Assembly: GCA_034401795.1 (NCBI GenBank)
Contig: CM067359.1
Location: 142,668,233 to 142,732,232 of the forward strand
Source of the DNA: Chaetoderma sp. LZ-2023a
Lineage: Eukaryota; Mollusca; Caudofoveata; Chaetodermatida; Chaetodermatidae
DNA: 64,000 bases
Direction of reading: 5' to 3'
Shown: one piece after another, positions 10,762 to 59,399 of the stretch
How positions within the stretch are numbered: position 1 is the stretch's first letter
Layout: each line of letters begins with the position of its first letter
Translations under genes and position numbers: made by a program
The notes under the pieces: model-generated
What the model was told of the DNA's origin: nothing
Database searches by the model: none
What the model saw: only the letters and a program-made list of their open reading frames with translations

Positions 10762-11300
10762 AATTTCAGTTTGGGACGCCCAGATTTCAGGTTGGGACCC
10801 CCAGATTTCAGGTTGGGACGCCCAGATTTCAGGTTGGGACCCCCGGATTTCGGGTTGGGACCCCCAGATTTCGGGTTGGGACCCTCAGATTTCGGGTTGG
10901 GACCCCCGAATTTTGGGTTGGGACCCCCAGATTTCGGGTTGGGACCCCCAGATTTCAGGTTGGGACCCCCAGATTTCAGGTTGGGACCCCCAGATTTCGG
11001 GTTGGGACGCCCAGATTTCGGGTTGGGACCCCCAGATTTCGGGTTGGGACGCCCAGATTTCAGGTTGGAACCCCCAGATTTCGGGGTGGGACCACCAGAT
11101 TTCAGGTTGGGACCCCCAGATTTCGGGTTGGGACCCCCAGATTTCAGGTTGGGACCCCCAGATTTCGGGTTGGGACCCCCAGATTTCAGGTTGGGACCCC
11201 CAGATTTCGGGTTGGGACTCCCAGATTTCAGGTTGGGACCCCCAGATTTCGGGCTGGGACCCCCAGATTTCAGGATGGGACCCCCAGATTTCGGGTTGGG
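10762..11300 (+). repeat. 21 bp minisatellite, array 1
   Basis: About 25 units of TTGGGACCCCCAGATTTC(A/G)GG. The period is 21 bases, a multiple of three, and the unit has no stop in several frames, so long open frames appear on both strands (LGPPDFR, GWDPQIS and PEIWGSQ repeats). These are by-products of the repeat, not evidence of a gene. Units with AGG and CGG endings alternate in blocks. Confidence 0.95.
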
Positions 11301-11388
11301 TCACCCTGACTTGTAGGTGTGAGGTCCTGGGACCTACAAAATTTAGATGCCATGAGAAACACTGCCCACACGAAAAGAAATTTCATGA
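11301..11388 (+). repeat. Spacer unit of the higher-order repeat, copy 1
   Basis: Unique sequence beginning TCACCCTGACTTGTAGG and containing GAGGTCCTGGGACCTAC and CACGAAAAGAAATTTCATGA. It recurs almost unchanged after array 2 (11,806-11,892), so array plus spacer form a higher-order unit of about 505 bases present twice. Confidence 0.9.
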
Positions 11389-11805
11389 TTTCAGATTTCG
11401 GGTTGGGACCCCCGAATTTTGGGTTGGGACCCCCAGATTTCGGGTTGGGACCCCCAGATTTCAGGTTGGGACCCCCAGATTTCAGGTTGGGACCCCCAGA
11501 TTTCGGGTTGGGACGCCCAGATTTCAGGTTGGGACCCCCAGATTTCGGGTTGGGACGCCCAGATTTCAGGTTGGAACCCCCAGATTTCGGGGTGGGACCC
11601 CCAGATTTCGGGGTGGGACCCCCAGATTTCGGGTTGGGACCCCCAGATTTCAGGTTGGGACCCCCCAGATTTCGGGTTGGGACACCCAGATTTCAGGTTG
11701 GGACCCCCAGATTTCGGGTTGGGACCCCCAGATTTCAGGTTGGGACCCCCAGATTTCGGCTGGGACCCCCATATTTCAGGTTGGGACCCCAAGATTTCAG
11801 GTTGG
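11389..11805 (+). repeat. 21 bp minisatellite, array 2
   Basis: About 20 units of the same 21 bp repeat. The variant order near its start matches that of array 1, for example the pair of GGGACGCCC units and the TTGGAACCC unit. It therefore arose by duplication of the whole block, not by independent growth. Confidence 0.95.
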
Positions 11806-11892
11806 GACACCATGACTTGTAGGTGTGAGGTCCTGGGACCTACAAAATTTAGATGGCATGAGAAACACTGCCCACACGAAAAGAAATTTCAT
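11806..11892 (+). repeat. Spacer unit of the higher-order repeat, copy 2
   Basis: Same sequence as 11,301-11,388 with a few changes. It continues rightwards into AAGAAATTTCATGACCCAAT, which reads KKFHDPMNMNKLKTL. That text resembles the motif that follows RDERL in the repeat-borne protein noted at 10,337. Confidence 0.85.
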
Positions 11893-13451: not shown

Positions 13452-13457
13452 TTTATT
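13452..13457 (-). promoter_or_regulatory. Candidate polyadenylation signal of the host gene
   Basis: AATAAA on the minus strand, 262 bases past the stop codon of exon F, is the first canonical signal found downstream. Use of this site is inferred. Confidence 0.45.
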
Positions 13458-13719: not shown

Positions 13720-13862
13720 TCAGACATTATAGCCTGCAAATGAGAATACACCGTCTACAAGATATTTGATCATGTGACCTTTTTCCTTGATAACATTGAC
13801 CATCTCGTGCCGTGTCTCTTCTAACTGTTTCTTGGAGACCTGCTGGCTTCCACGCTCCCACG
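13720..13862 (-). CDS. Host gene, terminal exon F (47 codons and stop)
   Basis: The minus strand shows a clear acceptor (TTTCATATATTGCATTTGTAG), then CG TGG GAG and an open frame of 47 codons ending in TGA. It encodes WERGSQQVSKKQLEETRHEM and then KGHMIKYLVDGVFSFAGYNV. The exon starts in phase 1 and so fits the donor of exon E, the split codon being G|CG (Ala). The mixed charged, helical text ending in a stop looks like the C-terminus of an ordinary cellular protein. The acceptor and first bases of this exon recur about 120 times in the satellite directly upstream. In this gene I see a host protein, not a transposon product; the closest guess is an Asteroid-like protein. Confidence 0.65.
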
Positions 13863-16800
13863 CTACAAATGCAATATATGAAACTTGATTAAACGCTTTT
13901 CAACAAACACTCCCATGACGTAGGGACAACATATTAAACGAGATGAAACACACTCAAGTGCTTCCCGTACAATATATGAAACCAAATCTAACACCCCAGC
14001 CACCCCACCTGCGCATGAAGCAACGCCTCTATTTTTAGATTATCCTCCTGCTACATGTATAATAGATGAAACCAGATGAACGCTCTCCAATGCTTCAATC
14101 ACAATAAATGAAACCAGATGAAACGCTCTCCCATGCTAGAAGTACAATAAATGAAACCAGATGACACACTCACCCATGATAGATGCATAATAGATGAAAC
14201 CAGATGAAACACGCTCCCATGATACAAGTACAATAAATGAAACCAGATGAAACACTCTCCCATGCTACAAGTACAATAAATGAAACCAGATGAAACATGC
14301 CCCCATGCTACATGTACAATACATGAAACCAGATGAAACACTCTTCCATGCTACAAGTACAATAAATGAAACCAGATGAAACACTCGCCCATGCTACAAG
14401 TACAATAAATGAAGCCAGATGAAACACTCGCCCATGCTACACGTATAATGGATGCAACCAGATGAAACACTCTCCCATGCTACACGTATAATAGATGAAA
14501 CCAGATGAAACAGTCTCCCATGCTACAAGTACAATAAATGAAACCAGATGAAACACTCTCCCATGCTACACGTATAATAGATGAAACCAGATGAAACTAT
14601 CTCATGCTACACGTATAATAGATGAAACACTCTCTCATGCTACACGTATAATAGATGACACTAGATGAAACATTCTCTCATGCTACAAGTACAATAAATG
14701 AAACCAGATGAAACACGTATAATAGATGAAACCAGATGAAACGCTCTCCCATGCTACACATATAATAGATGACATGAGATGAAACATTCTCTCATGCTAC
14801 AAGTACAATAAATGAAATCAGATGAAACACTCGCCCATGCTACAAGTACAATTAATGAAACCAGATGAAACACTCGCCCATGCTACACGTATAATGGATG
14901 CAACCAGATGAAACACTCTCCCATGCTACACATATAATAGATGAAACCAGTTGAAACTAGCTCCAATGCTGCAAGTACAATAAATGAAACCAGATGAAAC
15001 ATTCTCTCATGCTACACACATAATAGATGACACCAGATGAAACACTCTCTCATGCTACAAGTACAATAGATGAAACCAGATGAAAGACTCCCATGCTACA
15101 CGCATAATAGATGAAACCAGATGAAACACTCTCATGCTACAAGTACAATAAATGAAAACAGATGAAACACTCTCCCATGCTACACGTATATTAGATGAAA
15201 CCAGATGAAACACTGTCTCATGCTACACGTATAATAGATGACACCAGATGAAACACTCTCTCATGCTACAAGTACATTAGATGAAACCAGATGAAACACT
15301 CTCCAATGCCACACATATCATAGATGAAAGTGGACGAAACACTCTCATGCCACAAGTATAATAAATGAAACCAGATGAAACACTCTCCCATGCTACGAGT
15401 ATAATAAATGAAACCAGATGAAATGCTCTCCCATGCTACAAGTACAATAAATGAAACCAGATGAAACACGCCCCCCATGCTACAAGTACAATAAATGAAA
15501 GCAGATGAAACACGTATAATAGATGAAAGCAGATGAAACTCTCTCATGCTACAAGTACAATAAATGAAACCAGATGAAACACTCTCCCATGCTACACGTA
15601 TAATAGATAAAACCAGATGAAAAACTCTCATGCTACACGTATAATAGATGACACCAGATGAAGCACTCTCTCATGATACACATATAATAGATGAACCACT
15701 CTCCAATGCTACATGTACAATAAATGAAACCAGATGAAACTCTCCCATGCTGCACGTATAATAAATGACACCAGATGAAGCACTCTCTCATGATACATAT
15801 AATAGATGAAACCAGATGAAACACGCTCCAATGCTACATGTACAATAAATGAAACCAGATGAAACACTCTCCCATGCTACACGCATAATAGATGAAACCA
15901 GATGAAACTCTCTCATGTTACAAGTACAATAAATGAAACCATATGAAACACTCTCCCATGATTTTTTGTATAATATATGAAACCAGATGAAACACTCTCC
16001 CATGCTGTAAGTACAATAAATGAAACCGGATGAAACACTCTCCCATGCTACAAGTAGAATAAATGAAACCAGACGAAACACTCCCATGACACATATATAA
16101 TAAATGAAACCAGATGAAACGCTCTCCAGTGCTTCAAGCACAATAAATGAAACCAGATGAAATGCTCTCCCATGCTACAAGTACAATAAATGTAACAAGA
16201 TGAAACACTCCCATGCTACACATATAATAGATGAAACCAGATGAAAGACGCTCCAATGCTACATGTACAATAAATGAAACCAGATGAAACACTCTCTCAT
16301 GCTACAAGTACAATAAATGAAACCAGATGAAACACTCTCCCATGCTACAAGTAGAATAAATGAAACCAGATGAAACACTCTCCCATGCTACATGCATAAT
16401 AGATGAAACCAGATGAAACTCTCTCATGCTACAAGTACAATAAATGAAACCATCTGAAAGACTCTCCCATGATACATGTATAATAGATGAAACCAGATGA
16501 AACACTCTCCCATGCTGCAAGTACAATAAATGAAACCGGATGAAACACTCTCCCATGCTGCAAGTACAATAAATGAAACCGGATGAAACACTCTCCCATG
16601 CTACAAGTAGAATAAATGAAACCAGATGAAATCTGCCCTGTAGGTGGGGCTTAGAATACACCTTCCGTATCCTCTGCGTGTCGTAAGAGGCGACTAAAGG
16701 AGGTAAGGGCGAGGTAACCCCGACAGAAACCTCGAGTGCTGAAGACGTAGGTTCCAGGCCGCACGGCGCACTCTAATAAACCATGGATCTACGCACTTAA

Positions 16801-19640
16801 TGCTTATGATCATGTCGATAGTCACTTACAGGACTGGCGGTATGATCAGCGAACGAAAAGAAGAAGAAACCAGATGAAATACTCTCCCATGCTATACGTA
16901 TAATAGGTGAAACGAGATGAAACACTCTCCCATGCAACATGTATAATAGATGCAACCAGATGAAACAGTCTCACATGCTACAAGTACAATAAATGAACCC
17001 AGATGAAACATTCTCTCTCATGCTACAAGTTCAATAAATGAAACCAGATGAAACACTCTCATGCTACAAGTACAATAAACAAAACTAGATGAAACACTCT
17101 CTCATGCTACACATATAACAGATGACCACAGTTGAAAAACTCTCATGCTTCAAGTATAATAAATAAAACCAGATGAAACACTCTCATGCAACACGTATAA
17201 TATATGCCACCAGATGAAACACTCTCAAGCTACGCTTGCAATAAATGACCCCAAATGAAATACTCTCTTATGCTACAAGTACAATAAATGAAACCAGATG
17301 AAACACTCTCTCATGCTACGCATACAATTGATGACACCAGATGAAACATTCCCATGCTACACGTATAATAGATGACACCAGATGAAACACTCCCATGCTA
17401 CAAGTAAATAAATGAAACCAGATGAAACATTCGCCAATGCTACATGTATAATAGATGAAATCAGATGAAACACTCTCATGCTACAAGTACAATAAATGAA
17501 ACCAGATGAAACACTCTCCAATGATACAGAGAATAAATGAAACCAGATGAAACACTCCAATGATACAGAGAATAAATGAAACCAGATGAAACACTCTCTC
17601 ATGCTACAGGTACAATAAATGAAACTAGATGGAACACTCTCCCATGCTACACGTATAATAGATGAAACCTGATAAAACACACTCTCATGCTACAAGTACA
17701 ATAAATTAAATCAGATGAAACACTCTCTCATGCTACACATATACTAGATGAAACTGGACGAAACACTCTCTCATGCTACAAGTACAATAAATGAACCCAG
17801 ATGAAACATTCTTTCTCATGCTACAAGTTCAATAAATGAAACCAGATGAAACACTCTCTCATGCTACGCGTATAATAGATGACACCAGATGAAACACTCT
17901 CTCATGCCACAAGTACAATAAATAAACCTAGATGAAACACTCTCTCATGCCACAAGTAAAACAAACGAAACCAGATGAAACACTCTCTCATGCTACAAGT
18001 ACAATAAACAAAACCAGATGAAACACTCTCTCATACTACACATATAACAGGTGACACCAGATGAAAAACTCTCTCATGCTTCAAGTATAATAAATAAAAC
18101 CAGATGAAACACTCTCTCATGCTACACGTATACTATATGCCACCAGACGAAACACTCTCAAGCTACGCGTGCAATAAATGAACCCAAATGAAACAATCTC
18201 TCATGCTACAAGTACAATAAATGAAACCAGATGAAACACTCTCTCATGCTACGCAAGTACATTGATGAAACCAGATGAAACACCCCCATGCTACACATAT
18301 AATAGATGGCACCAGATGAAACACTCTCTCATGCTACAAGTACAATAAATGAAACCAGATGAAACACCCCAATGCTACATGTATAATAGATGAAACCAGA
18401 TGAAACACTCTCTCATGCTACAAGTACAATAAATGAAACCAGATGACACTCTCCAATGATACACATAGAATAACTGAAACCAGATGAAACACTCTCTCAT
18501 GATGAAACCAGACGAAACACTCTCTCATGCTACAAGTACAATATATGAAACCAGATGAAACACTCTCCCATACTACAAGTACAATAAATGAAACCAGATG
18601 AAACACTCTACCATGCTATAAGTACAATAAATGAAACCAGATGAAACACTCTCACATGCTACGCGTACAATAAATGAAACCAGATGAAACACTCCAATGA
18701 TACAGAGAATAAATGAAACCAGATGAAACACTCTCTCATGCTACAAGTTCAATAAATGAAAGCAGATGAAACACTCTCCCATGCTACACGTATATCAGAT
18801 GAAACTGGGCGAAACACTCTCTCATGCTACAAGTACAATAAATGAACCCAGATGAAACATTCTCTCTCATGCTACAAGTTCAATAAATGAAACCAGATGA
18901 AACACTCTCTCATGCTACAAGTACAATAAACAAAACCAGATGAAACACTCTCTCATGCTACACATATAACAGATGACACCAGATGAAAAACTCTCTCATG
19001 CTTCAAGTATAATAAATAAAACCAGATGAAACACTCTCTCATGCTACACGTATAATATATGCCACCAGACGAAACACTCTCAAGCTACACATGCAATAAA
19101 TGAACCCAAATGAAACAATCTCTCATGCTACAAGTACAATAAATGAAACCAGATGAAACACTCTCATGCTACACGTACAATTGATGACACCAGATGAAAC
19201 ACTCCCATGCTACACGTATAATAGATGACACCAGATGAAACACTCCAATGCTACATGTATAATAGATGAAACCAGATGAAACACTCTCTCATGCTACAAG
19301 TGCAATAAATGAAACCAGATGACACTCTCCAATGATACACATAGAATAAATGAAACCAGATGAAAGACTCTCTCATGCTACAAGTACAATAAATGAAACC
19401 AGATGGAACACTCTCCCATGCTACACGTATAATAGATGACAGCAGATGAAACACTCGCCCATGCTACATTTATAATTTATGACACCAGATGAAACACTCT
19501 CTCATGCTACATGTATAATAGATGAAACCAGATGAAACACTCTCTCATGTTACAAGTACAATAAATGAAACCAGATGAAACACTCACCAATGCTATACGT
19601 ATAATAGATAACACCAGATGAAACACTCTCCCATGTTCAA
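13863..19640 (-). repeat. 42-44 bp minisatellite made of the exon F 3' splice site
   Basis: Roughly 110-130 tandem units fill most of this stretch. On the gene strand a unit reads TTTCATTTATTGTACTTGTAG|CATGGGAGAGTG and then TTTCATCTGG. The true exon F border is TTTCATATATTGCATTTGTAG|CGTGGGAGCGTG, so the unit is the intron end plus the first dozen exon bases. The units nearest the exon (13,870-14,090) are the most degenerate. Further out they are crisp, with sub-variants: GTATAATAGATGA against GTACAATAAATGA on the plus strand, and TCTC against TCCC. Long minus-strand frames (SSGFIYCTCSMGE type) are by-products of the repeat. Confidence 0.95.
16633..16868 (+). mobile_element. SINE-like insertion in the minisatellite
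   Basis: About 235 bases unlike the satellite interrupt it. They start with CTGCCCTGTAGGTGGGGC, contain CGTGTCGTAAGAGGCGACTAA and GGTTCCAGGCC (box-B-like), and end in GAAAAGAAGAAG before CCAGATGAAA resumes. CCAGATGAAA borders both sides, but because it is satellite sequence it cannot prove a target duplication. A short element with an AAG-rich tail suggests a SINE or the 3' tail of a LINE. Confidence 0.5.
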
Positions 19641-19873: not shown

Positions 19874-21329
19874 GACACATACGTAACGACTTTGTTATAT
19901 TTGGTCTGGTTGGTTGAATCTGTCAATACAGTAGTGACGGCGGCAGTGGCAGCACCAGTAGTAGTCATTACACCATTGACCCACCAGATAAGCGGCCGCT
20001 CAACTAATTAGTTCTGGGGTTCGTAATATAATAGGCTGAATCAGCTGCCATGCTACGAGTACACTATGTGAAATCAAATGAGACAAACGTACTAAGGATA
20101 TGACCACTATCTCAGTAATGATCACTGTCATGCTGACGTCAACGGGAAGATCCATGCTTCTTGCTCTCATTGAGGAGAATCATATAACACATATTACACA
20201 AAGTCGGGTTGGACGAACTTGAGTTATCACTGCAACACGGAAATGTTGGTATGGTGATAGTGACCCTTGAGACGACAAATAAATACATTGCATCTTCTTG
20301 CTTCATTTCAATTTTGCAAACCAAAGCCTAGACAGCGGAGCATGCACGCACATATGCACAGTGAGATACACAGACTGAGAGATGAACAAATGCATGTACA
20401 GCAGGTCAATGCCGTAAGACTCATGAATGGGGAGATGCCCGAACATGCACAGAGACATAATAACATGCACACACATGCTCATACACGCACGCACGCACTA
20501 ACACATGCACACGCACAATGCCCCACAAGATATATGGACTGAGAGAAACACAGACCATACCAAGCCAGGCTTGGATACAAGTGCAAATGCATTTGAATCT
20601 CATGTATTTGCATTTGCATTTCTATGAAAAGGGTTGCATTTGCATTTGAGTTTTCAAATGCATTTGAATTTTGTCAAGAGCACTACTTTTCTGATTTTGT
20701 ATTTCTTTCAAAATTGATTGGAACTTGCTGTTGTTGTAAATAGCAGCAACAGCACCCAGTCAAATTAATTTTTAAAAATTCAACCAAATTATTTGTTAAA
20801 TCATTAAATGCTAAATGCCATTTCTGTTGCTAGAAATTAGAAATGTAATTCCCTGTGATTTATTAACCCATTTCACTCTGAATTTCTTAGCATGTAGCTC
20901 TCAGCCATCAAAATACCTAAATATGCAAAATCATGTATATTTTTAAATTACTTTGACATAAGTCAGTTGAGATCTTAGCAAGCCAACAAATTTTAGCTAA
21001 TTTGATTCTGAGATAAGTTACAGCAACGTATCTCTAAAATATAATAAATATGATCACCTTATAAATCGTAAGGAATGGGTGCCTGCATTCTCCTGTCCAT
21101 TCTGTTGACCCTTTAACACATACATACATGATCACTGAAATAATTGGCTCAGTGATTGTCTTCTATTGGCCTGCAAATGGGCATTTGTAAAGACCACGAC
21201 AAAGGCCGATGTTGGTCTGTTTGGGCACCAACAGGTTAATGAAACAATTGAACTAAACGTGGTTGCTGCTTTTAGTCAATACGTTGATTTTCAGGAAAAT
21301 TAATAATATTCACATGATCATAGATTGTG

Positions 21330-21450
21330 TTAAAGAACCGCAATCTTTTAGCCCAAAACACAGGTGGTCACTGACTGAGATGACTGGCTTGGTAATCGAG
21401 TGAGTCATTCCAGTGGTAAAATTTCAAAGATTATCTTCTTGGAAGGCAAA
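21330..21450. mobile_element. Hairpin element family P2, diverged copy inside the hAT-like element
   Basis: GAGATGACTGGCTTGG faces GAGTGAGTCATTCCAGTGG, with outer arms that only partly pair. It is older than the copies at 7.9 and 47.7 kb. Confidence 0.5.
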
Positions 21451-21661
21451 TAGACATTTACCAAGATCAATAAATAATAGATGCTGATAATTCTGTTGAC
21501 ATGGGTTAATTTACTGTTCGCCCATTGTGATTATAAGCGCCTGTCATTCAGTCTGACTATAAGCGCACACTCAGCCATGTGTGACTAAGATGATCTCAGA
21601 CAAAGTTAACATTTGAACATTTTAATCTAGAAGTGTCAGAATCTTAGTTCAGGTCTTGATT

Positions 21662-21740
21662 AAACTGATGAACATTTTGAAACAAATTTGACTGGAAACT
21701 GATCTACAGCTGCCAGTCAAATTATCTTCAAAATATTCAA
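21662..21740. repeat. Core inverted repeat, diverged
   Basis: TGAACATTTTGAAACAAATT with a mirrored arm AAATTATCTTCAAAATATTC. Further weak copies follow near 21,785-21,870 and 21,890-21,970. Confidence 0.5.
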
Positions 21741-22074
21741 CAGAATATTTGTTAAATGCATACAGAAATTGCATACGCTGATAACTATTTTGAATGTATT
21801 TTGACTGGAACCTGTTGCTGCCATAGGCGCAGTAGCAGATATCAATAAAATTCCTTTCAAAATATTGAACATAATATTTGATCATTATTTTGAAAGTAAT
21901 TTGACTGACACATGTTGCTTCCATAGGGTGAAATGGATATCAATGAAATTTACCCTTCAAAATAGTCAACATTATATTTAGGAATCTGAAAATTCAATGC
22001 TTTAATGGTTACCCCATAACCCTTTAAACCTCATATCAGCCAAAAACGACTTCTGCAGTGGTCTCGAGAAATGT

Positions 22075-22205
22075 TCATTTGCAGACTAAGGGAAGTATAT
22101 ATTTTTGAAAATTTACAATTGGAATGACTGGCTTGATAACCAAGCCAGTCATTCCAGTGGTAAATTTTCAAAAAAGGTCTTCCCTTGGTCAGCAAATAGA
22201 CATTT
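22075..22205. mobile_element. Hairpin element family P2, copy inside the hAT-like element
   Basis: GGAATGACTGGCTTGATAAC faces AACCAAGCCAGTCATTCC. The outer arms pair through GCAGACTAAGGGAAG and CTTCCCTTGGTC. Confidence 0.8.
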
Positions 22206-22293
22206 TCTTTGTGAAAATTGAAATTTTTAAAAACATATTCCAGGGTTAGTGTTAATGGTGAAATAAGTATTATTTTTTCATTGTAAAGTTTCA

Positions 22294-22402
22294 TGTGCAG
22301 AGAAAGACAGTATTTTTGAAAATTTTACGCTGAAATTATTGGTTCAATAAGCGAGTCATTCTAGTGGTAAAATTTCAAAAATAGTCTTCTCTTGGTCTGC
22401 AA
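22294..22402. mobile_element. Hairpin element family P2, diverged copy
   Basis: GTGCAGAGAAAGACAGTATT at the left faces AATAGTCTTCTCTTGGTCTG at the right. The centre is eroded. Confidence 0.6.
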
Positions 22403-22790
22403 AATGTTTTACAAAAAATAGTCACTACCAGCAGATACATAGATGGCAGATGCATACTCAGAATTTCAGTACCAGACGTGTGCCCAAATATTCAAATGCA
22501 AATTTGCAAATGCATTTGCATTTGCATTTGAATAAGTTGCAAACATTTGCATTTGCATTTAAATGCAATGGCGCCGGGCTGCATTTGCACTTGCATTTGA
22601 ATCATTTACAAACATCTGCATTTGCATTTAAATGCAATACCCTGCACTTGTACCCAAGCCTGTATCAAGCACGTCCATATGGTTTCCAAGATACATGGTT
22701 AAGTGAAAGTGAATACATTACTTCATATAAATCATGTGGGGGTGATGTCATCACATACAGTTAACGTAGTGTGGTTATTGTATAGGTTAC

Positions 22791-22890
22791 CTCTCCCATG
22801 CTACACGTATAATAGATGAAACCAGATGAAATACTCTCTCATGCTACAAGTATAATAAATGAAACCAGATGAAACACTCTCCCATGCTAC
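22791..22890 (-). repeat. Two satellite units next to the duplicated intron start
   Basis: Two units of the exon-F-type minisatellite, cut off from the main array. On the gene strand the inner one reads GTGTAG|CATGGGAGAG and runs straight into GTAACCTATAC, the 5' end of segment A. The outer one is broken off at 22,890 by the LTR beginning TGTAGCC. Confidence 0.9.
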
Positions 22891-24987
22891 TGTAGCCTCG
22901 GGTGTGCTCGCTGGTCTGCTGGACATTCCCGTTTCGCGGCACTGCAGGTGCGCGCCACAGCGGGGCAGGATAGCTGGTTAGCTGTGGATCTCGGGGTTGT
23001 GGAGCCGGTGTTGCATGCTGCCGGATCATACAGAAACTGACTTCGAGAGCCGGTGGAACTTTCACATTCCAGTGGGGCCGTGTGACCATCACCGCCAACT
23101 TGAACCTTACTGTTTCGTCTACGCTGTTGGTGTTACCATGTGACGGCTCCATTTTATGGCCGGGAAATAATATTAAAGATACATACAATAATTATTGTGA
23201 TAACAGTCAAACAATCATACTCGTTTGCTGCTACCTGGGGGAGGTCTAGTACATTGGACCGGGTTGACGACTCATAATTGTGGTCATTGCCAGAGGTACC
23301 TCACAGAGTGAGATCCGTGAGGTATTCCCGTAAAGTAGGGTCCTAGTGCGGCTACTTAACCAGTTTAATATAAACTAAATTAATCCCAACGGAACCTTAT
23401 TTTGCTGCAAGAGGAAAGTGCCTTATGCGGGGCTCCATCACAGGAAGATGCCTCCAACACCGAAGCGGAGGAAGAGAGATGGCAAAAACGGCCACTCTCC
23501 TATTAAAACTAAAGTATGTAAACAGGTCAACCTAATGAAGTTATATGGGAGTTGTGATGTATGCTGTTTTATTTGGGGTGGATGATTTCCGCAGAATTCA
23601 ACACCACCATCTTATGTAGGTTCGAAAACTCTGCGTTAGTAGTTGCCGCTTTATTTATGTTGGCCTTCTGCTAATTCCTACCCTATCGTTTAGCTATTGG
23701 GTCCAAGTCTAGTTTTTAGCCGCAATTGGCAATGGTAGCTAACTACCTTTTAATATACAGGTCTGATGGGCGAGAATATTCAGTGGTTGTGAGGCCACCC
23801 TACGAAACATTCCCCCCCCCCCCCCCCCCCAGTAGACGCATGCATACTTATCATATGAGAGTTCCAGAATCATATAATGATCATGTCACTGTCAAACATG
23901 AACATACATAGCATCACAAGGACAAATACGGGACATAAGCGTTTGAAAAACAGTCAAGACGCAGCCATCCAACTATACTGACCTTCCACGGAGGGTGTGG
24001 TGGGTTCTAAGACCGCACCCGGTCACTGGTAGAGTTAGATGGAGGGCTGAATCCTTTCCGTCACCGGCGTGTCTGGTACAGATTTATACTGATCCGTGTC
24101 TGGGGAGCTAACATTTACCTGTCGTTAGGGTTATGTAATATCGCCCAGAGATGCACTGCAGGCCAGTAATAAATTATATATATGTTTTCGCAGTGTTTCC
24201 TACTTTGGCGAAGTTTTCTAACTAACCAGTATCATAGGATACGCGGGGTATGTATGCGGTGATCGCCACTTTATTTCTATCCTCACTAGAATAATCCAGG
24301 TTTAGTCAGGCGCATGTCATGTTCACGTAATGAGAACATGAACAGCGACCTCAGTGAAAATTGATGCTGTGCGGGGAATAAGGTGATGCATGTGTTGTTG
24401 TGTAACCTAGTGATATTGCGGTCCAAGAGTTTTTATAATAAACAAAACAATTTAACATGGTTGGCTACTGCCATACCACTAACTTTAGGAAAATACAGTA
24501 AAATAGAATTATGTCACTCGAACTTGCGGTGCTTATAGGCACGGAAAATGAGGATAATATATACATAATAATAAACTATAAAAATGCGGTCTCAAATGAC
24601 CGGGAGGTAGCTATTAGTCATCACTACCTGTTACATAGACGTAAGACAATAATAATATAATAAGACAGAGTACCTATTAGTCATCAGTACGGAAGAAGTC
24701 TCATATTCATGATAGTTGAAAGCATAACACAATTTGGAATGCGAGGTGGCACGATGCGGAAGTTAGCTGCCAGGAAATTACTGCAGCCATACTACTGATG
24801 CGGCTCATTCTCAGGAAAAGTGAAGACGATCCTTCGCAGAGGAAGATGGCTAGTAGATAGTCACGTTCATATGAAGTTATTAAATTATCTGAATGGTCTA
24901 AAATGTTCTGTACTGATACAGATATCGAAAAATGCCCTACAGTTCTTGATGAGCTACGAAAGATTGTTAGGAAATGCGGATGCATTC
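22891..24987 (-). repeat. 3' LTR of the minus-strand Gypsy element (fossil)
   Basis: A direct repeat of 28,638-30,983. On the plus strand both start TGTAGCCTC and both contain GGCCGGGAAATAATATTAAAG, CTGCTACCTGGGGGAGGTC and AAACTATAAAAATGCGGTCTC. The left border abuts satellite units. Confidence 0.85.
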
Positions 24988-25035
24988 GCTACAGACGAAG
25001 GCGGTCTTCTCCCGGTATGCCTAATCCATGGCTAC

Positions 25036-25251
25036 CTACCAGTAACCACTTGCCAGGTCAAGGATGCAGAACCATCTGGCTCTGGACAAAGAATCTAATG
25101 CCTGATCTGTCTGAAGTAACAGATACACGTCCTTGACGCTTATATCATTAAGGCGGCGGTAGTCGACGCAAAACCGCAAAGATCCATCCTTCTTGCCTAC
25201 AAGTACAATGGAACTGGCCCAGGGGGATGCTGAGGGCTCTATGATGCCCAT
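25036..25251 (-). pseudogene. Reverse transcriptase, first part (fossil Gypsy pol)
   Basis: The frame reads SSIVLVGKKDGSLRFCVDYR and ends LDLASGYW, the standard fingers and palm opening of Gypsy reverse transcriptase. It is part of a broken element. Confidence 0.85.
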
Positions 25252-25428
25252 CTACAACATATCATTTACTTGTCGATGTGCCTCTGTCGCTTTATGTATG
25301 GGAAGATGATGTACCAGCTGCCGTACAGGTCGGTTGTTCCCAGTGTCGATGGAATGACACACGAGTTGAATTTCTCCCAGGTCCATATCCCCTGCGGAAA
25401 ATCTCTCCCGGTATTTAAACAGGATCCA

Positions 25429-26166
25429 TCATACATCACGCTTGTGGGATTGCATCAGTTCAACTGTGGCACGCAAATATAGGTCATGCAGATGTTCAGG
25501 TATGTTGTCGTCAGAAGCTGCTGTTGCTGTAGGTGTGTTGGGAGCTGTTTCCAGGGAAATCACATCCACCATATGGCCACAGCGAAAGCCTGGGACAAGC
25601 GTTATAGGATCGGCTGTTCCGTTGAATACCCAGTATGGTATATGGTTTTTGTTGGTGGTGTAAACTATCATCCGTGGACTTGCACATTGGGAGGCGATCA
25701 TGTATTCAGGGTCGGGTTCCAGCATGGCTATGTGTGTGTTATTTCCTAACTGTGGTTCAGTGGCCCATAGGATTTCCTCTTGTCCCAGCTCAACTGTTGC
25801 GGTTGATGCTAAAATCACTGCACATGTATCGTACAGCGATGACTCTGGTCCGAGGGGTATACGACGGACGTGTATGTCTAATTCCTGTTGTCTGCATTGA
25901 ATAAAGGCTTCACTGGCGCTGAGAAAATCAGAACCTAAGAGGGCATCGTTTTGGATAGAGGCGATGACAACTCGCTGAATGAATTGCATCTCCTCTATCA
26001 TTCCAGCCACGGGAACATCAGCCCCTGTGGCTGTTTGTAAAAATATGTAAGAATGCCTAAGGGGTGGTCTCTGATGAGGTGGGATGCTCTCATAGAGACG
26101 CTTGTTAAAGAAAGTGATGGAAGCTCCAGTGTCTAAAGTGGCACTGGTAGATATTCCACCAAACAA
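25429..26166 (-). pseudogene. Retropepsin-like protease region (fossil Gypsy pol)
   Basis: A 245-codon frame beginning MFGGISTSATLDTGASITFF; LDTGAS is the aspartic protease signature. It is followed by YIFLQTATGADVPVAG and ALLGSDFL, a second typical region. The plus-strand element has the counterpart at 57,806-58,369. Confidence 0.85.
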
Positions 26167-26213
26167 GCAAGCACACTTATAGATAACTTTGCGGTGTGCT
26201 TGCGGAAAAGTCT

Positions 26214-28612
26214 CTAAGATTGTGGTATGAGGCGACTTCCTAGCTGCGGTGGGGCCCTGTATGAAAGTGGTCTGCTTCTCGATTGCTTCCGTGAGTGTGA
26301 TTGGTGGCTGAGTGAGGAAGGGGCCAGCTCGTCGTCATTGCTGCTAATTTTGCTTAGGCAGCGAGGAAGCTGGGGGTAGCAGTGGTGCTGTATCTGAAGT
26401 TGATGGTGTGTGCTGTGAGTTGGAATAGACAATAGTTTGAATTGGACTGGAACGGAGCGGAGCTATTTGAGCCAGCCATTTTGGACAACACGTCATGGGG
26501 TGTTTAGGAGATGTGCAAAAGAAACATTGTCGTTACCACTGTTTACGCTGATGTTTTTGGCGGTCTTTTGCGGATTCATGATGCAGTGTGTTGGCTTCCG
26601 TCCATGTCACTGCTACTGCTACTGGGTGCTGGAGTTGATGATGATGGTTGGTGCGTGTTGCAGACCACCAGAGGGCACCGGGTGTTAAGTGCACTGGTTG
26701 TCCGTCGTGGTGCTTGTATAAACATTGTTTCAGTGGAGGAGCTACAACCAACTACTGTCGTTTTACATAGGAAAGAGGGTTTAGTAGGTATGGCTATTGC
26801 AGGGTCACAATTTTCCGTAAAGGGATGGATTGTTGGGGCTGCAGATGCAGTGTGCATCGTAGGTGCCAGCTTCTGTGAAACTGTTTTTTGTGTAGTGTTT
26901 GTACTATGTGATGAATCCACATGAAGTCGATGTTGAAGGACCACAGTTAAGCCGGGTTTGAGGATGGGGTACTGAAGTGACTCTCTAATCAGAGCCCGTT
27001 CGGGTTTAATGGATTCTCTGGCTGTGGTGTGCATTGATCAGTGGCCAACGGAGCAGAGGGGGTGGGGTGGGGGGGGTGGTGGTTTGGACACTGGTCCCTT
27101 CAATGGCCCGTCTGACCTGCCCGTAGCATGTGTTGGGCGGATGTGTGTAGGGTGTGTTGCCACTTGGTGGCCGTAATGTAGTTTGTTGGGTTGCCACCGC
27201 AGTGCTAAGTGTGGTGACCAGAGTGGTGAGGGCAGAGATCGGTTTCGTGATCTCTTCTAACCTATCGTGTGTTGCCTGCCTATTGTTGTTATTCTGCCCC
27301 TGGTCCCTCTGCGATGGGACTGGCCACGCCCTCTTCCATGGGGTGCGTGATCTCCTCGGGTAGGTGGTGCGGATTGTGTTGTGTTGTTGCTGTCGGTACT
27401 AGTTGCTGTATGTGGATGGTCTGTAGAAGTGAGGATGTTCGCATCATTTAGCTCATTGATGGGGTGGAGTTGACGACGAGCGTTTTTCTCCTACTCGAGG
27501 AAATTCTTGATGCGTACGGATGTCGCTGTACGAGTTTGAAGGTTCCCGTATTCCAAAAGGAATAGTTTTACCTTGAGGGCCTGTTCTCCACTCAATGCAT
27601 CAATGAAAGTATCTAAATGGAGGCGGGTGACTCCTTCATGGTTGGTGTTGGGGTATGCTGTGGTGACGAGGCGTCGAATGCGGCTAGCCAATTCTGGAAG
27701 TTTCCTCCGTACGTCTTCTTAGATTTTTCAATTGAAGATGGCTTGTTTCTCCAAATGTCGTATCTCCGAACCTCTCGGAAAGAGCGCTTTTCAACTCTGT
27801 GTATATGGCTGTGAGGTCTGCCCACATATCCGCCAGTGCCTGCAGGGCTTTCCCTGACAGCTTGACGGCCAGATACTCCACCATCTGTTGATCCATCCAT
27901 CTATTTATATGGCTTATGATTTCAAACTGACACCAGTAATTGGCCCAGTCACCATCCCCGCTGAATTCGGGTGGGAGGATGACTTGGCCAGAGCCATGAT
28001 AAGGTACAATGGGCGCGAATCCAGGTGGGGGCCGGGGAGTGAATGGGGTGAATGCAGATGTAGGTTGGTGTTGGTGGACATGGCTCCGCATATCCTGGTC
28101 ACTCCGCACATGGGGTGGGGGTGGGGGTTCCCATCTGTGAGGTTCCGTATGGTAAGTTGTGACGGATGAACGCGGGAGCTTCCGCCTCGGCATAGGATGA
28201 TGCACTGGTGGTGGTGTATTGTGCATTCGTCATGATGGGTCCGTAGGACATTGCTTGGGTAAAGTTGACATGGTGAACCATATGGGTGTGTAGGTTGCAT
28301 AGTGTGCCCCAAAGCGGGACTTCTCCGCTGCTGTCTGTGATACGGCTGATGTAGAGTGCCTAGCGCGGATGTCAGACAGGGTTATAAAAGACGCACCCGC
28401 CTGGGAGGCATCATGGAAAGCCTCCTGACTGATCGGCGAGTACTCTTGTGGTCATGCTAATGGTGTGTCCTCTAATTCAGAATAAGTTACCTCGTCAGCG
28501 GTGAGTGCTCGTGCCGCCCTTCCATCATAGTACTCCGCCTCTGAGTCGGGAGAGTACAGATTGTAGTAAAAGGGAGACCGGAACATTCGGGTGGGAGTGG
28601 GTTCACTTTGTG
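26214..28612 (-). pseudogene. gag region (fossil)
   Basis: Capsid-like text occurs in fragments: a stretch with LPPEFSGDGDWANYWCQFEI (27,684-28,226) and another with HLDTFIDALSGEQALKVKLF (27,491-27,691). The matching parts of the plus-strand element sit near 56.0-56.7 kb, before a CCHC knuckle. The region is proline-rich and broken. Confidence 0.7.
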
Positions 28613-28635
28613 TTCGAACCCCACATCGGGCACCA
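28613..28635 (-). other. Primer-binding site, tRNA-Lys type (fossil)
   Basis: On the minus strand TGGTGCCCGATGTGGGG, then TTCGAA, lies two bases inside the LTR end. It is complementary to a tRNA 3' end with CCA, a CCCCAC stem and a T-arm. The plus-strand element has TGGCGCCCGATGTGGGG, which matches animal tRNA-Lys closely. Confidence 0.75.
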
Positions 28636-28637
28636 TT

Positions 28638-31332
28638 TGTAGCCTCTGGGCATGCGCGCTGGTCCAACCGACATTCCAGTTTCATGGCACCGCAGGTGCG
28701 TGGCACAGGATAGCTGGTTACCCGTGGATCTCGGGGTTGTGGAGCCGCCAAAGTTGACACTTACTGTTTCGTCCACGCTGTTGGTGTCACCGGTGTGACG
28801 GTTCCATTTTATGGCCGGGAAATAATATTAAAGATACATACAATAATTATTGTGGTAGCAGTCAAACAAGCGTAATCGTTTGCTGCTACCTGGGGGAGGT
28901 CTAGTACATGGGGCCGGGTTGACGGCGCATAATCGTGGTCCTCGCCAGAGGTACCTCATAGAGTGAGATCCGTGAGGTATCCCCATAAAGGAGGGTCCTA
29001 GCGTGGCCACTTAGCCAGTTTAATATAAACCAAATTAACCCCTACGGAACATTATTTTGTTGCGAGAGGAATGCCTCGCGCGGGCCTCCATCACAGGAAA
29101 ATGCCTCTAACGCCGAAGCGGAGGAAGAGAGATGGCAAAAAGGGCCTCTCTCCTATTAAAACTAAAGTATGTAAACAAGTCAACCTAATGAAGCTAATTG
29201 GGATTTGTGATGCATGCTGTTTTACGTGAAGGTGGGGTGGATGATTTCCGCAGAATTCAACACCGCCATCTTATGTAGGTTCCAAAACTCTGTGTTAGGA
29301 GTTGCCGGTTTATTTATGCGGGCCTTCTGCTAATTCCTACCCTATCATTTATTTATTGGGTTCAAGTCTAATTTTTAGCCACAATCGGCAATGTGAGAAT
29401 GTTCAGTGGTCATGAGGCCACCCTATGGAACATCCCCCTCAGTAGACGCGTGCGTACTTATTATGAGATCAGAGTTCCAGAATCATATAACGATCCTGTC
29501 ATGACCACACATAACATCACAAGGACAAATACGGTACATAAGCGTTTGAAAAGCACAGTCAAGTTTTTAAGGTGGGGACAAAGACGCAGCCATCCATCTA
29601 TAGTGACCTTCACGGAGGGCGTGGTGGGCTCTAAGACCGCACCCACACTGGTAGAGTTAGATGGAGGGCTGAATCCTTTCTATCACCAGTGTGTCTGGTA
29701 CGGATTTATACTGATCCGTATCCGGGGAGCTAACATTTACCTGTCGCTAGGGTTATGTAAAATCGCCCAGAGATGCACTGCATGCCAGTAATGAATTATA
29801 TATATATATGTTTTTGCAGTGCTTCCTACTTTGGTGGGGTTTGCTAACTAACCAGTATCCGAGGATATGCTGGGGATGTATGCGGTGATTGCCACTTTAT
29901 TTCTAGCCACACTGGAACCCCAATAGTTCTAGAACTAACTCTAAATAACGTGACGGAAGGAGGTCCAGACAATTAATAAGCCTGAAGGCTGGTGGAGCAT
30001 AGACAGAGACAATTACTCATAACTGAGGCCTTACGGAAAATGGCCAATTTATACAATTTACCCGAGCACGGTGTTAGATATTCGCTACTCCGGAAAAGAG
30101 ACTAGCACAAAATGTCTCCTACCGATAGTCCTCCCTACTACTATAAACCTATCCTATCGAGCTAGAATAGTCCAGATTTAGTGGCCGCATGTCATGGTCG
30201 CATAATGAGAACATGAATAGCGACCTCAGTGGACAATTGATGCTGTGCGGGGAACATGGTGATGCAGGTGTTGTTACCGTATTGTGTAACCTAGTGACAT
30301 TGTGGTCCAAAAGTTTTTATAATAAACAAAACAATTCAACATGGTTGGCTACTGCCATATCACTAACTTTAGGAAAATACAGTAAAATAGAAGGTCACTC
30401 GACCTTGCGGTGCTTATAGGCACGGAAAATGAGGATAATATATACATAATAATAAACTATAAAAATGCGGTCTCAAATGACCAGGAGGTACATATTAGTC
30501 ATCAGTATCTGTTACATAGAAGACAGACAATAATAATATAATAAGACAGAGTACCTATTAGTCATCGGTACGGAAGAAGTCTCATATTCACAATAGTTGA
30601 AAGCGTAACACAATTTGGAATGCCAGGTGGCACGATGTGGAAGTTAGCTGCCAGGAAAATTAATTACCTATTAGTCATCGGTACGGAAGAAGTCTCATAT
30701 TCACAATAGTTGAAAGCGTAACACAATTTGGAATGCCAGGTGGCACGATGTGAAAGTTAGCTGCCAGGAAAATACTGCAGTCATACTACTGATGTGGCTC
30801 ATTCTCTGGAAAGGTGAAGATGATCCTTCGCAGAGGAAGATGGCTAGTAGATAGTCACGTTCACATGAAAAGTTATTAATTTATTTGAATGGTCTAAAAA
30901 GTTCCATACTGGTGCAGAAGTCAGAAAATGCCCTACAGTTCTTGACGGGCTACGGAAGATTGTTAGTAAATGCGGATGCATTCTGGCAGTCCACAAGACG
31001 AGATGCGTTGAATAGAATAGCTCACATGATGCATCAAGCAATGTTCCCGTAAGTTGGGTCGAAATGTCAAAAATGCTAACACATGATGTGCGGATTAATT
31101 TCCACCACTGGTTGTGTGGCATGGCCAATCTGGCGAGTCATCACTGAGTACATCACTTGCCCCACATACTGAACGATGAGCTACATCGGAGCCAAAAGGC
31201 CCATCCGCAAGAAAGGTCCCTTTGCGGAAGTAGTGTCTTGGGCTACCTGCCTTTACTTTGTTTATTGCCCCCGGGTGATATCTTCCCGGGAGCTTACAAA
31301 AACTGCAGTTGCAGATGTAGTGGCTTGTGCCC
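28638..31332 (-). repeat. 5' LTR of the minus-strand Gypsy element (fossil)
   Basis: The inner border is exact (TGTAGCC at 28,638). The outer border is set where segment B begins, about 31,332, and is uncertain by some tens of bases. It is longer than the partner at 22,891 and has a private internal stretch. Confidence 0.7.
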
Positions 31333-34040: not shown

Positions 34041-34597
34041 CATCCCATATTGGTTATACTCATCACTCATCTTGTGACACTGTGGTGCCCATCCCAGGGT
34101 ATTTGGTTATACTCACCTTGTGACACTGTGGTGCCTATCCCATGATATTTGGCTATACTCACTTTGTGACACTGTGGTGCCCATCCTATATCTGGTTATA
34201 CTCACCTTGTGACACTGTGGTGCCCATCCCAGGGTATTTGGTTATACTCACCTTGTGACACTGCGATGCCCATCCCATGATATTTGGTTATACTCACCTT
34301 GTGACACTGCGATGCCCATCCCATGATTATACTCTCCTTGTGACACTGTGGTGACCATCCCATGATTTTGGTTATACTCACATTGTGACACTGCGATGCC
34401 CAGCCCAGGGTATTTGGTTATACTTACCTTGTGACACTGCGATGCCCATCCCATGATATTTGGTTATACTCACCTTGTGACACTGTGGTGCCCATCCCAG
34501 GGTATTTGGTTATACTCGCCTTGTGACACTGTGGTGCCCATCCCAGGGTATTTGGTTATACTCCCCTTGTGACACTGTGGTGTCCATCCCAGGGTAT
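34041..34597 (-). repeat. 46 bp minisatellite with a 5' splice site in most units, left part
   Basis: About 12 units. On the gene strand each reads TGTCACAAG|GTGAGTATAACC followed by AAATACCCTGGGATGGGC and ACCACAG. AAG|GTGAGT is an ideal 5' splice site. The array lies in the B-C intron and is split by the DIRS insertion, resuming at 41,630. Confidence 0.9.
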
Positions 34598-41614: not shown

Positions 41615-41629
41615 CTCTTGAAGTGAAAT

Positions 41630-41871
41630 TTGGTTATACTCACCTTGTGACACTAGTGCCCATCCCATGATATTTGGTTATACTCACCTTGTGACACTGC
41701 GATACCCATCCCAAGGTATTTGGTTATACTCACCTTGTGACACTGGTGCCCATCCCATGATATTTGGTTATACTCACCTTGTGACACTGTGGTGCCTATC
41801 CAATGATATTTGGGTACGGTCAACTTGTGACACTGTAATGTCCATTCCATGATAGTTGGTTATACTCACGT
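41630..41871 (-). repeat. 46 bp minisatellite with 5' splice sites, right part
   Basis: About five units continuing the array at 34,041-34,597. The outermost (GCACAAC|GTGAGTATAACC) is the most diverged and may be the founder. Confidence 0.9.
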
Positions 41872-43229
41872 TGTGCGCAACATGCAGCCTCTACTCTACC
41901 AGGCAATCAGCTTTAGCAATGCAGTTTCCAGCAGGAGTTACCGCCAGCAGAGCTGCATCTAAAATTCTGTTTTCGTGGGACACGGTTCTAATCGGAGTTG
42001 AACCAAAATCAGTACGTCTTGAATTGTTAGGTTTATAATTGAGGACACCAACATCTATTCATTTTGTTCAAAGCTATATTAAACTCCTTTCATTGTTTAC
42101 CAGCCAAAATTTAATTGGACAATATTTAAGTAATCAGGTACAAACTGTGACAGTGTGAGGGGTATTAATGTTCAACCTGTAGTGACACACTGACAGAGGG
42201 CTCTTAATCTAACTATAAGAGGGAAGCTGTAACTACGGAGACTGGTCACTATCCATGCCGTTATTTCATACAGAGATGTTAATATCCATATTTCAGAGAT
42301 TTGAAGAATGGTCCGGTCACACAAATTTACATCATCACCATCTAGAGATAAAATGATTAAAGGTGTGGCTTACTAGGAAACTCGTAACGTTAAGGTTCAG
42401 AAACTTGAATGAAAGCTCATCACCTCTTTGCTTCGATTGCGAGTGTAGGCGGTCCTATTCTTATCTACATGCATCTTGTCATGAACTAAATATCGCTTCT
42501 AGACTTGTGGCCATTAATTTTGCAGTACAGTTATAATACATCAAATTTGGCTGTCTACTCAAACTGTAATGGAACGCAACATAACAGGATGGTTTCCCGA
42601 TGCTGACATGCCATTCTCTATCTTCACCATCCCTCTCTACTTTCAACCATGCTTCACTCGTTCATTTATTTGTCTCTTAAATGGTACCATTACACACAGC
42701 TAACATAACATAACAGTCTCTCTCTCTCTCTCTCCCTTCCTCCATCCCCAGCCCCCCCCCCCCCTCTCTCTCATTGCTCGGACCAGTGGAACAGGTTCAA
42801 ATTATTCACATGGACAACGCTGAGAAACAGCCGTAGCATCCAAGCGATTCAAGTTTCAACCCTTCACGTTTGAATAACAGGGAATGTCTACCAAAGTAAC
42901 CAATGGCAAAATATCCTTTGAACAGTGATGTTTCTTCACAGGCCTCTGAAGACCCAGACAACGCATTTGAAGCATTGTCTTCGCCCCAGTCTTTTACCTA
43001 TGGCGTCTTGTAGGTAATCAAACAATGGACGCCGACCAAATTAACTAATCAAATATCCACCTATCAAGTCTGAAGAATCATCACTAACGATATCCTGATA
43101 CATGTTTCGATGCCTACCTCCATAGCGGTCTTTCAGCGAAGCTTGGTAACAGTTGGCTAAGCAGTTCAGCAGTCTTTTAAATGATATATGGTAGATCTCG
43201 AAAAATTCAAAACGGTAGCGAACAGAATT
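41872..43229. other. Intronic interval with TC and poly-C runs
   Basis: Lies in intron B-C. A (TC)n tract at about 42,717-42,735 and C-runs near 42,751-42,764 are the only clear features. A minus-strand frame between 41,895 and 42,020 reads TPIRTVSHENRILDAALLAV but meets a stop before the nearby GTGAGT, so it is not taken as an exon. Confidence 0.5.
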
Positions 43230-43837: not shown

Positions 43838-44308
43838 TCATTCGACCAGAAATATAAGTGTTTGCAATTGTAACCGCTTTTCAGCAAGCCAATTTAGCTT
43901 CATCCACATTTGTGTTCCAGAGAATGTTTCCGGACATGTTAGAGATACGACTATGATTCGTGTATGGTCGGCATTAAGTAAATATGCTTGATTACTTGAC
44001 TGAAGCAAACATAATACATACAAATATGAGGTATATCCCACGCCTTATTTACGAATGTTCTGACATGTTGTATCGTCTTTAAGGACAATGATATTATTAC
44101 TCAGACATGTGAATTCACAATCTTCGATATTGATGTCACTTGCCCGAGGGATGTAAAAGAAATACGTTAGCTTAGTCATACATGATCGGAATGAGATTGT
44201 TCTATCATGAAGGGAAACTAGAAAACTAGGAAGCTGATATATGCCCATGAAGCCAAATACATCTTTCACCAAGATAGCATAAGCGTCATTGCATATATAA
44301 AGCGTCAC
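43838..44308 (-). other. Two unrecognised open frames
   Basis: Frames at 43,838-44,041 (ending KRLQLQTLIFLVE) and 44,045-44,308 (with TISFRSCMTKLTYFFYIPRA and NIEDCEFTCLSNNIIVL) lie in the B-C intron. Both end in stops and neither has splice signals that would fit the phase-1 join of B to C. They may be an old exon or repeat relic. I assign no function. Confidence 0.2.
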
Positions 44309-44641
44309 TGACTATATGTACTAGTACATGGCACCAGGATAGCACAAGCATTGATGAACATGTGCATAAGTACCTGGCATCAGGATAAGATATGACCTAT
44401 GTGCACGTACCTGGTACCACAATATCACAAACGTCAATAGATATATGTACACGTACCTGGCACTAGGATAACACAAGCGTCATTAGATATATGAACACGT
44501 ACCTGACAGCAGGATACCACAAGCGTTATTAGATATATGTACACGTACCTGGCACCAGGATAGCACAAACCTCGTTAGATATATGTACACGTATCTGGCA
44601 CCAGGATAAGACAGCGTCATTACATATATATTTACACGTAC
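44262..44641 (-). repeat. 46 bp array made of the exon B 5' splice site
   Basis: About eight units begin exactly at exon B's donor. On the gene strand exon B ends GGAGCCAG|GTACGTGTAA, and each unit reads CTATCCTGGTGCCAG|GTACGTGTACATATAT with CTAATGACGCTTG between. Six or more units keep the CAG|GTAC core. The copies furthest from the exon are most eroded. Confidence 0.9.
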
Positions 44642-44756
44642 CTGGCTCCTGATGAATCATGATGTAATGGAATATCCTCATATTCTGGAATATGTTGTCT
44701 GGTTCGATATCAAGCAGAGACGGAACTTGTCTATCATCCAGAGTGTGGGCACGGCG
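44642..44756 (-). CDS. Host gene, exon B (38 codons + 1 base)
   Basis: The chosen acceptor is GATTCTCTGCAG|CGCCGT and the donor GCCAG|GTACGT. It enters in phase 0 and leaves in phase 1. It reads RRAHTLDDRQVPSLLDIEPD and NIFQNMRIFHYIMIHQEP. The frame stays open upstream to an ATG at 44,793-44,795 (MTFLRLLNVDSLQ), so a longer exon is possible. The phases fit exons A and C. The donor is the template of the array that follows. Confidence 0.6.
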
Positions 44757-55100: not shown

Positions 55101-55218
55101 TACAAGGTCCGTCACCCCGAGACCGGATGCTAACCAGCGTCATCACTCGTCGTGCACTTGCAGCGCGGCGAGTCGACATGATACACCGGAACGGCCCGAC
55201 ACTACCCGGCGAGCTACA
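52168..55218 (+). repeat. 5' LTR of the plus-strand Gypsy element (fossil)
   Basis: The left border is set by the match to 63,907 onward (TTCTAGAACATTCGGCTGC, then GATTGGCTGTTGCTCGAACG). The right border is GAGCTACA, two bases before the primer-binding site. About 3.05 kb, unusually long. Two inverted CCAAT boxes stand at 52,210 and 52,232; I see no clear TATA box after them in this copy. Confidence 0.75.
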
Positions 55219-57048: not shown

Positions 57049-57805
57049 GGGCACCGAATCACACCGAGCCACTTCGGTGCCCGTATTCGCCTCCCGGCTC
57101 AACTGCGGCTTTCATGCAACAACGTTCAGTGGCCAGCCATCATCCACCGAAAACAGCTTTCACACAGACACCAAAATGCACGGCTTCACATATGTCAGTG
57201 CCTACGTTGCCTCCCCTATCCGCAGCAATGACATCCTCCTCTTTTCCGCACACAATAAGCATTCTTTCCTATGTAAAATGGCAGCAGTAACATTGTAGCA
57301 CCTCCGCTGAAACAGCGTTTTTGCAAGCACCACGTCCCGCCACCAAGACACTAGATTCTAGGTGTCCTCTGGTGGTATGCAGAAGACCACCCCATTCAGC
57401 ATCATCTCCCGCATCCACAGACAGTAGCGACTCAGGAGACGATTCACTCCGCCTCATGGATTCGCAAGCGCCGACATAGATGGAGGAACGCACGTCCTTG
57501 GCGACATCACTGTTTCTTCTGTGCTTCACCAAAACATCCTATGAAGCATTGCAGGAAATGGCTTGCGCAGGTGGAGCTCATTCGTCATCCCGTACGCGCC
57601 ACCGTCTACACCAATACAGCCTACACAGAGACAGCAACAACAACACCCACCAATGCTACCCCCAGCTCCGCCTTCGAAGCAGCCTTCACACCATCAGCGA
57701 CGACGATCTGCCCCTTTCCTCACTCAGCCATCTATAACATTACAAGAAGCAATACGGAATACATAGAGTGATGCTGCCCCAACGCCATTATCCCGGACAG
57801 CATCA

Positions 57806-58369: not shown

Positions 58370-58389
58370 CTTAGCTAGCGGTTACTGGC

Positions 58390-59330: not shown

Positions 59331-59399
59331 GAAGCTGAACACGAAGAGGCCGCCACCGTGACACAGTCATCTCCGGACTTCCCCGAATTGAGGTGCGCA

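Follow-up and report, generated by a model that had tools for sequence, protein, structure and literature searches.

The closest described relatives of the array reported here are the mirages of amphioxus, tandem units that lie across exon-intron borders at the 5' or 3' ends of introns (PMC3087553). They were reported in Adh3 and in the globin genes BflGb6 and BflGb9 (PMC3087553), with troponin C and PGBD5 added by PMC3902484, and some of their units keep an AG or a GT (PMC3087553, PMC3902484). One mirage at a 3' border has six units in one haplotype and three in the other, and RT-PCR suggests regular splicing (PMC3087553). Within the open-licence literature, amphioxus is the sole host in which arrays go under the name mirage; border duplications that are single or short are also described for potato and human, as far as the available passages go. 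A tandem duplication across an intron-exon border that carried the branch site, the tract and the 3' splice site is reported in PMC4974935; that one duplication became a new intron, whereas the gene studied here holds many copies and has at most a predicted new intron. Internal tandem repeats or minisatellites alter exon-intron structure between human paralogs, some of them at boundaries (PMC2812944). According to the accessible text of that paper, they average about four copies of about 30 bp and are mostly seen through changed exons and proteins. An abalone TSSK1-like gene carries an intronic 27-bp minisatellite with length polymorphism, stated as 62 repeats (PMC6905558). It resembles our array in its molluscan intron and its short unit, but the accessible text of PMC6905558 states no link to a splice border.

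We analysed a window of 64,000 nucleotides (the whole stretch of DNA presented here), in which the last coding exon of a minus-strand gene, exon F, is preceded by a 43-bp satellite. As in mirages, the unit crosses the exon-intron border, includes exon bases and stands in register beside a genuine border. Rounded, the array holds about 125 units head to tail, compared with three and six in the two BflGb6 haplotypes (PMC3087553). Unit lengths are 43 and 46 bp in the window, against 150-160 bp in BflGb6 and 10-72 bp in Adh3, in the portion of PMC3087553 available to us. The host is a mollusc and not a cephalochordate, its paralogs keep one-copy and few-copy states, and the start of the intron is duplicated too. 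The haemocyanin beta-sandwich domain PF14830 has 44 matches in the host's own genome and none in 14 control genomes, and we take these matches to mark the host as a mollusc. By structure, the array belongs to the mirage kind, and by length, host and preserved stages it is a variant, extending mirage-type arrays to molluscs. The features of the window, by rising coordinate, are as follows.

13,452-13,457, minus strand: AATAAA, a possible poly(A) signal, by pattern only
13,720-13,862, minus strand: exon F, last coding exon, with TGA at 13,722-13,720; its frame is coding and agrees in phase with exon D, and the paralogs conserve it
13,883-13,851, minus strand: border unit (intron end and first 12 bases of exon F), 28 of 33 positions identical to the consensus
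13,884-14,048, minus strand: decayed and interrupted units between array and border
14,049-19,635, minus strand: 43-bp satellite array, from TRF and wrap-around alignment; 129 aligned segments, 121 near full length
about 16,869-16,632 (approximate ends), minus strand: unrelated insertion within the array, about 0.24 kb
22,790-19,689, minus strand: copy B of the intron start, broken by about 2.1 kb of inserted sequence (roughly 20,566-22,656)
22,791-22,890, minus strand: island of 2.3 satellite units, 100 bp, at the junction of the duplicated intron start
32,340-31,333, minus strand: copy A of the intron start, from the donor of exon D
32,467-32,341, minus strand: exon D, with an open frame in phase 0 and its end in phase 1, newly found by reading the intron
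33,900-33,677, minus strand: exon C, ending in phase 0
34,065-34,597 with 41,624-41,875: third array, with strong donor motifs
44,300-44,649, minus strand: 46-bp array from the donor of exon E, about 7.5 units
44,756-44,642, minus strand: exon E
47,122-46,784, minus strand: exon A, the most upstream exon identified, possibly preceded by others

Exons A, E and C are open frames that fit together and were joined by hand. Through the TAG at 13,863, exon D connects with the 46-codon reading frame of exon F, and the frame opened from exon D reads AWERGSQQVSKKQ..., with 47 residues to the stop. Under a codon model trained on the gene's other exons and on open retroelement frames, exon F scored +4.24 bits in this frame versus -6.01 and -6.55 in the other two, and its last 40 codons placed in the top 2.3% when compared with 1,194 open windows of 40 codons (overlapping) from intron sequence. 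Its residues are 60-62% identical at three paralogous places; a fourth match, in the paralog P2 introduced below, runs into the intron and reaches 44%. Judging from frame and conservation, exon F is a real conserved coding exon, as the sequence-only reading, which had staked its proposal on this point, had assumed. If exon C were joined directly to F at the border, only 13 residues would follow from F. A model that spliced exon C straight to F, with an AG 20-23 bases downstream as the acceptor, was rejected after exon D had been found. Our protein search for homologs found none (361 and 479 word-sharing candidates, none of which scored); a Pfam search with the gene's protein gave nothing above the cut-off and a PDB search gave nothing.

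We assessed the structure of the array. TRF assigned it a period of 43 and 132 copies; our unit counts take in the 121 of 129 segments with no more than six gap columns and leave out the other eight. The mean identity of these 121 units to the consensus is 89%. Each 43-bp unit corresponds to the last 31 bases of the intron and the first 12 bases of exon F, and all units are in sense orientation. The array consensus reads TTTCATTTATTGTACTTGTAG|CATGGGAGAGTG (the bar marks the splice border) and the exon F border reads TTTCATATATTGCATTTGTAG|CGTGGGAGCGTG. The sequence-only reading had given the latter exactly so, and its description of about 120 copies of a unit spanning the intron end and the first dozen exon bases was accurate. 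In the 16 bases upstream of the 33-position border, 11 match the array consensus. Decayed units bridge the array and the border, and the border is therefore the last unit of the array, in register. We found no gradient in the likeness of units to the border along the array (Spearman -0.13, p = 0.17). In a tree of the units, support was above 0.9 at 11 of 112 nodes, and the border formed a long branch inside the array, not its root. A search of the 2.44-Gb genome returned at least 55 satellite matches, a lower bound, and all 55 lie within the window (some in the array region, others in the island near 22.8 kb), which bears out the expectation that the satellite is not widespread away from the gene.

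We searched the host genome with the joined protein and found paralogous loci on the same contig: P1 and P2, each with all five exons, and P3, with exon D and two F exons (P3a and P3b). The aligned ends of the paralogous exons coincide with corresponding splice signals, although our alignment cut 1-4 bases off a few of them. Four paralogous exon F acceptors were read (P1, P2, P3a and P3b). The whole 43-bp unit is present once in P1 and in P3b, at the exon F acceptor (...GTTTTATCTGATTTTATATATATTGTACTTACAG|CATGGGAGCGTGG, with one base different in the exon part of P3b), and no array of the unit was found in the whole D-F intron of P1 or in the 10 kb covered at P3b. The single-copy acceptor of P1 is identical to the satellite unit at 37 of 43 positions, and none of 200 shuffled units scored as high anywhere in the 10-kb locus of P1; together these figures exclude chance as the source of the homology between unit and acceptor. 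The border of P2 and P3a reads CTTTCATATATTGTACTTGTAG|CGCGGGAGCGTGG, and upstream of it lie a decayed unit (as read), a TA microsatellite and one intact unit (TTGTAG|CATGGGAGAATATCTCATCTGG in P2). The unit adjacent to the border is dead alike in P2 and the window gene (TACATC and TACGTC), which suggests one ancestral dead unit common to both. The exon F acceptors form a series, from one unit in P1 and P3b, through P2 and P3a, where the border is accompanied by an intact unit and what reads as a decayed one, to some 125 in the window gene.

We consider it probable that the 3' splice site of exon F gave rise to the array, making it a boundary-spanning minisatellite ('mirage'), and that the array is mostly passive. 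The single acceptor would be the ancestral state; the paralogs show the state itself, and parsimony points to its ancestry. The stretch from intron position -31 to exon position +12 (43 bp) would then have been duplicated in tandem to give two or three units, one of them dead. This state is seen in P2 and P3a, and from it we infer the duplication event. Unequal exchange, the usual course for minisatellites, may finally have raised the number to about 125. That the array grew from the exon F acceptor had also been the view of the sequence-only reading; it is supported by the paralogs, not by the tree of units. As a caveat, the single copy in P1 could reflect loss. Such a loss belongs to the reverse history, in which the satellite came first and supplied the exon F acceptor together with the first 12 exon bases, and the array afterwards disappeared from P1 and P3b. 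The homology of unit and border in register would fit this history as well, and the single copy in P1 alone cannot separate an ancestral state from loss. We nevertheless regard it as quite improbable: the whole D-F intron of P1 keeps one unit, exactly at the acceptor, with nothing else array-like, the satellite has no match elsewhere in the 2.44-Gb genome, and the exon E donor, described below, repeats the series of one, two and many. The lack of any match outside the window in those 2.44 Gb also tells against a dispersed satellite or mobile element that landed at the exon by chance. This idea could draw on the second patch of units 3.2 kb upstream, between two repeated stretches, but the patch marks where a local duplication within the intron was joined, and the unit is present once at the orthologous acceptor of P1, and we find such an insertion scarcely credible. 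An assembly artefact in copy number is very improbable; although there is a single assembly, and mirage length differs between amphioxus haplotypes in the available account (PMC3087553), the units have diverged from one another and a unique insertion lies inside the array.

The donor of exon E appears to have undergone a sister event to that of exon F, along the same course (one, two, about 7.5). In P1 this donor is single (CAAGAACCAG|GTAAGTAATG); in P2 it is doubled, 46 bp apart, and the second donor keeps its GT. In the window gene, the decoy nearest the real exon E donor is dead (ATACGT at 44,594). A genome search with the exon E array gave three matches, only in the window gene and P2. The third array is without a proven exon at its border and without a counterpart in the paralog loci read. 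A genome pattern search for three CAGGTAAGT gave 157 matches, with 19 arrays recognised by eye among the places listed, and the reversed-pattern control gave 859 matches. We detected no enrichment of donor arrays in the genome up to the middle of contig C3 (five donor arrays versus seven control arrays).

We compared the exons of the window gene with those of P1 and P2. Identities are given in the order window gene-P1, window gene-P2, P1-P2.

Exon A:.873,.841,.838
Exon E:.847,.896,.811
Exon C:.871,.853,.839
Exon D:.798,.724,.887
Exon F:.741,.832,.730

The window gene is nearer P2 in exons E and F and nearer P1 in exons A, C and D. Given this mosaic, gene conversion among the paralogs is likely.

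Acceptor strength was scored with a crude consensus; the acceptors of exons A, E and C scored 5.3-5.8 and the exon F border 5.3. Acceptors as good as these occur at 10.4 per kb in the array versus 4.4 per kb elsewhere on the strand. Each unit holds a plausible branch site (TTCAT), a T-rich stretch and usually a YAG, so that many decoys look competent. Donors at least as strong as the weakest real donor occur at 0.87 per kb in the array region versus 1.43 per kb elsewhere; one of the five sites concerned, a fair donor at 14,008, lies past the array and just upstream of exon F. Strong donors are present in both the exon E array and the third array. Because good donors are few in the array, most decoys have no donor near them, which leaves them no role but the start of a last exon. 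Of the acceptors, the real one lies closest to the AATAAA at 13,457, and no AATAAA was found in the array. Going upstream, the first unit to keep a YAG places its AG at 14,051, which is 188 bases away from the real AG.

The decoys might be used, either under regulation, to provide short-tailed alternative last exons, or as a slow splicing trap. The acceptor AG is kept in 102 of 121 units (YAG in 97), and the claim of more than a hundred decoy acceptors in sense holds when taken as this AG count; 54 of the 115 unit acceptors scored at least as high as the border. The AG columns (0.94 and 0.89), however, are no better conserved than their neighbours. When 103 decoys were followed in the real frame, 48 stopped after one residue and the median tail was 11 residues, and with such short, haphazard tails, decoy use would cost the protein its end (the last 47 residues). 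In addition, amphioxus mirages are reported not to disturb splicing, in the portion of PMC3087553 accessible to us. We judge regulated or trap-like use to be unlikely. On the reading of a mostly passive array, we think that decoys are spliced rarely and would yield at most minor isoforms. With exon F last and donors few in the array, a decoy would have little chance of being defined as an internal exon. Proximity to the poly(A) signal would favour the real acceptor as the place where the last exon starts, and the two units next to this acceptor appear dead or poor. The locus offers a natural test of acceptor choice, with about 100 near-identical acceptor cassettes in sense and one real site. 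Because the same genome holds related genes with one, about three and about 125 units, the effect of copy number on splicing would be measurable, and their series shows the birth of an intronic satellite.

A further duplication affects the first part of the D-F intron. Copies A and B are identical at 121 of 134 and 796 of 865 aligned columns, and the space between them is now mostly retroelement sequence. The start of copy B corresponds to the first base of the intron or lies as much as two bases earlier, an ambiguity due to a shared AG, and the copy is joined to a satellite unit ten bases past the acceptor of that unit. A genome search with the duplicated intron start returned copies A and B as the only long matches, along with 20 others of at most 80 bases. 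We rejected the possibility that it is an introner (a mobile intron), as there is no many-copy spread across the genome. This duplication, the island at 22,791-22,890 and the two donor arrays are absent from the sequence-only reading. Array units have ends at exon F +12 and some 12 bases into exon E, and the duplicated intron start has its ends at the edge of the exon D donor and at exon F +10. It is conceivable, and we offer it as a doubtful suggestion, that duplications start and stop at splice borders through seeding tied to transcription or splicing, and that last-exon definition lets about 100 competent acceptors accumulate unused. At 22,790, downstream of satellite acceptors, the joined copy carries a second donor (GAG|GTAACC), which would allow a new intron to form by tandem duplication.

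The minus-strand gene at 13,720-47,122 had no Pfam family above the cut-off and no homolog in a large protein search, and its paralogs were found within its own genome. Among these, P3a and P3b (the paralogous place with exon D and two F exons) repeat the facing ends of P2 and P1, the places with all five exons, at a distance of ~4.6 Mb. The features considered here are as follows.

34,065-34,597 and 41,624-41,875: 46-bp array with GTGAGT donors in its unit
10,763-11,808: 21-bp array, both strands open
22,891-31,300 and 54,900-60,700: Gypsy-like retroelement sequence
16,632-16,869: insertion of ~0.24 kb within the 43-bp satellite array
C4:23,326,039-23,326,839, same genome: repeat array, unit containing TTACAG|GTAAGT
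C1 138.45-138.47 Mb versus C1 143.09-143.11 Mb, same genome: the facing ends of P2 and P1 and their repeats P3a and P3b

The two stretches of the 46-bp array, which was found at this locus only, are apparently a single array interrupted by a DIRS-like element at ~34.6-41.6 kb. The donor is dead in unit 2. In the unit of the C4 array, the donor directly abuts the acceptor; recursive splice sites likewise have an acceptor and a donor back to back.

Several open frames of up to 366 residues were observed on both strands of the 21-bp array. In the D-F intron, the stretch that separates copies A and B of the intron start is filled by a Gypsy-like copy, and the insertion inside the 43-bp array gave us the impression of a SINE-like sequence.
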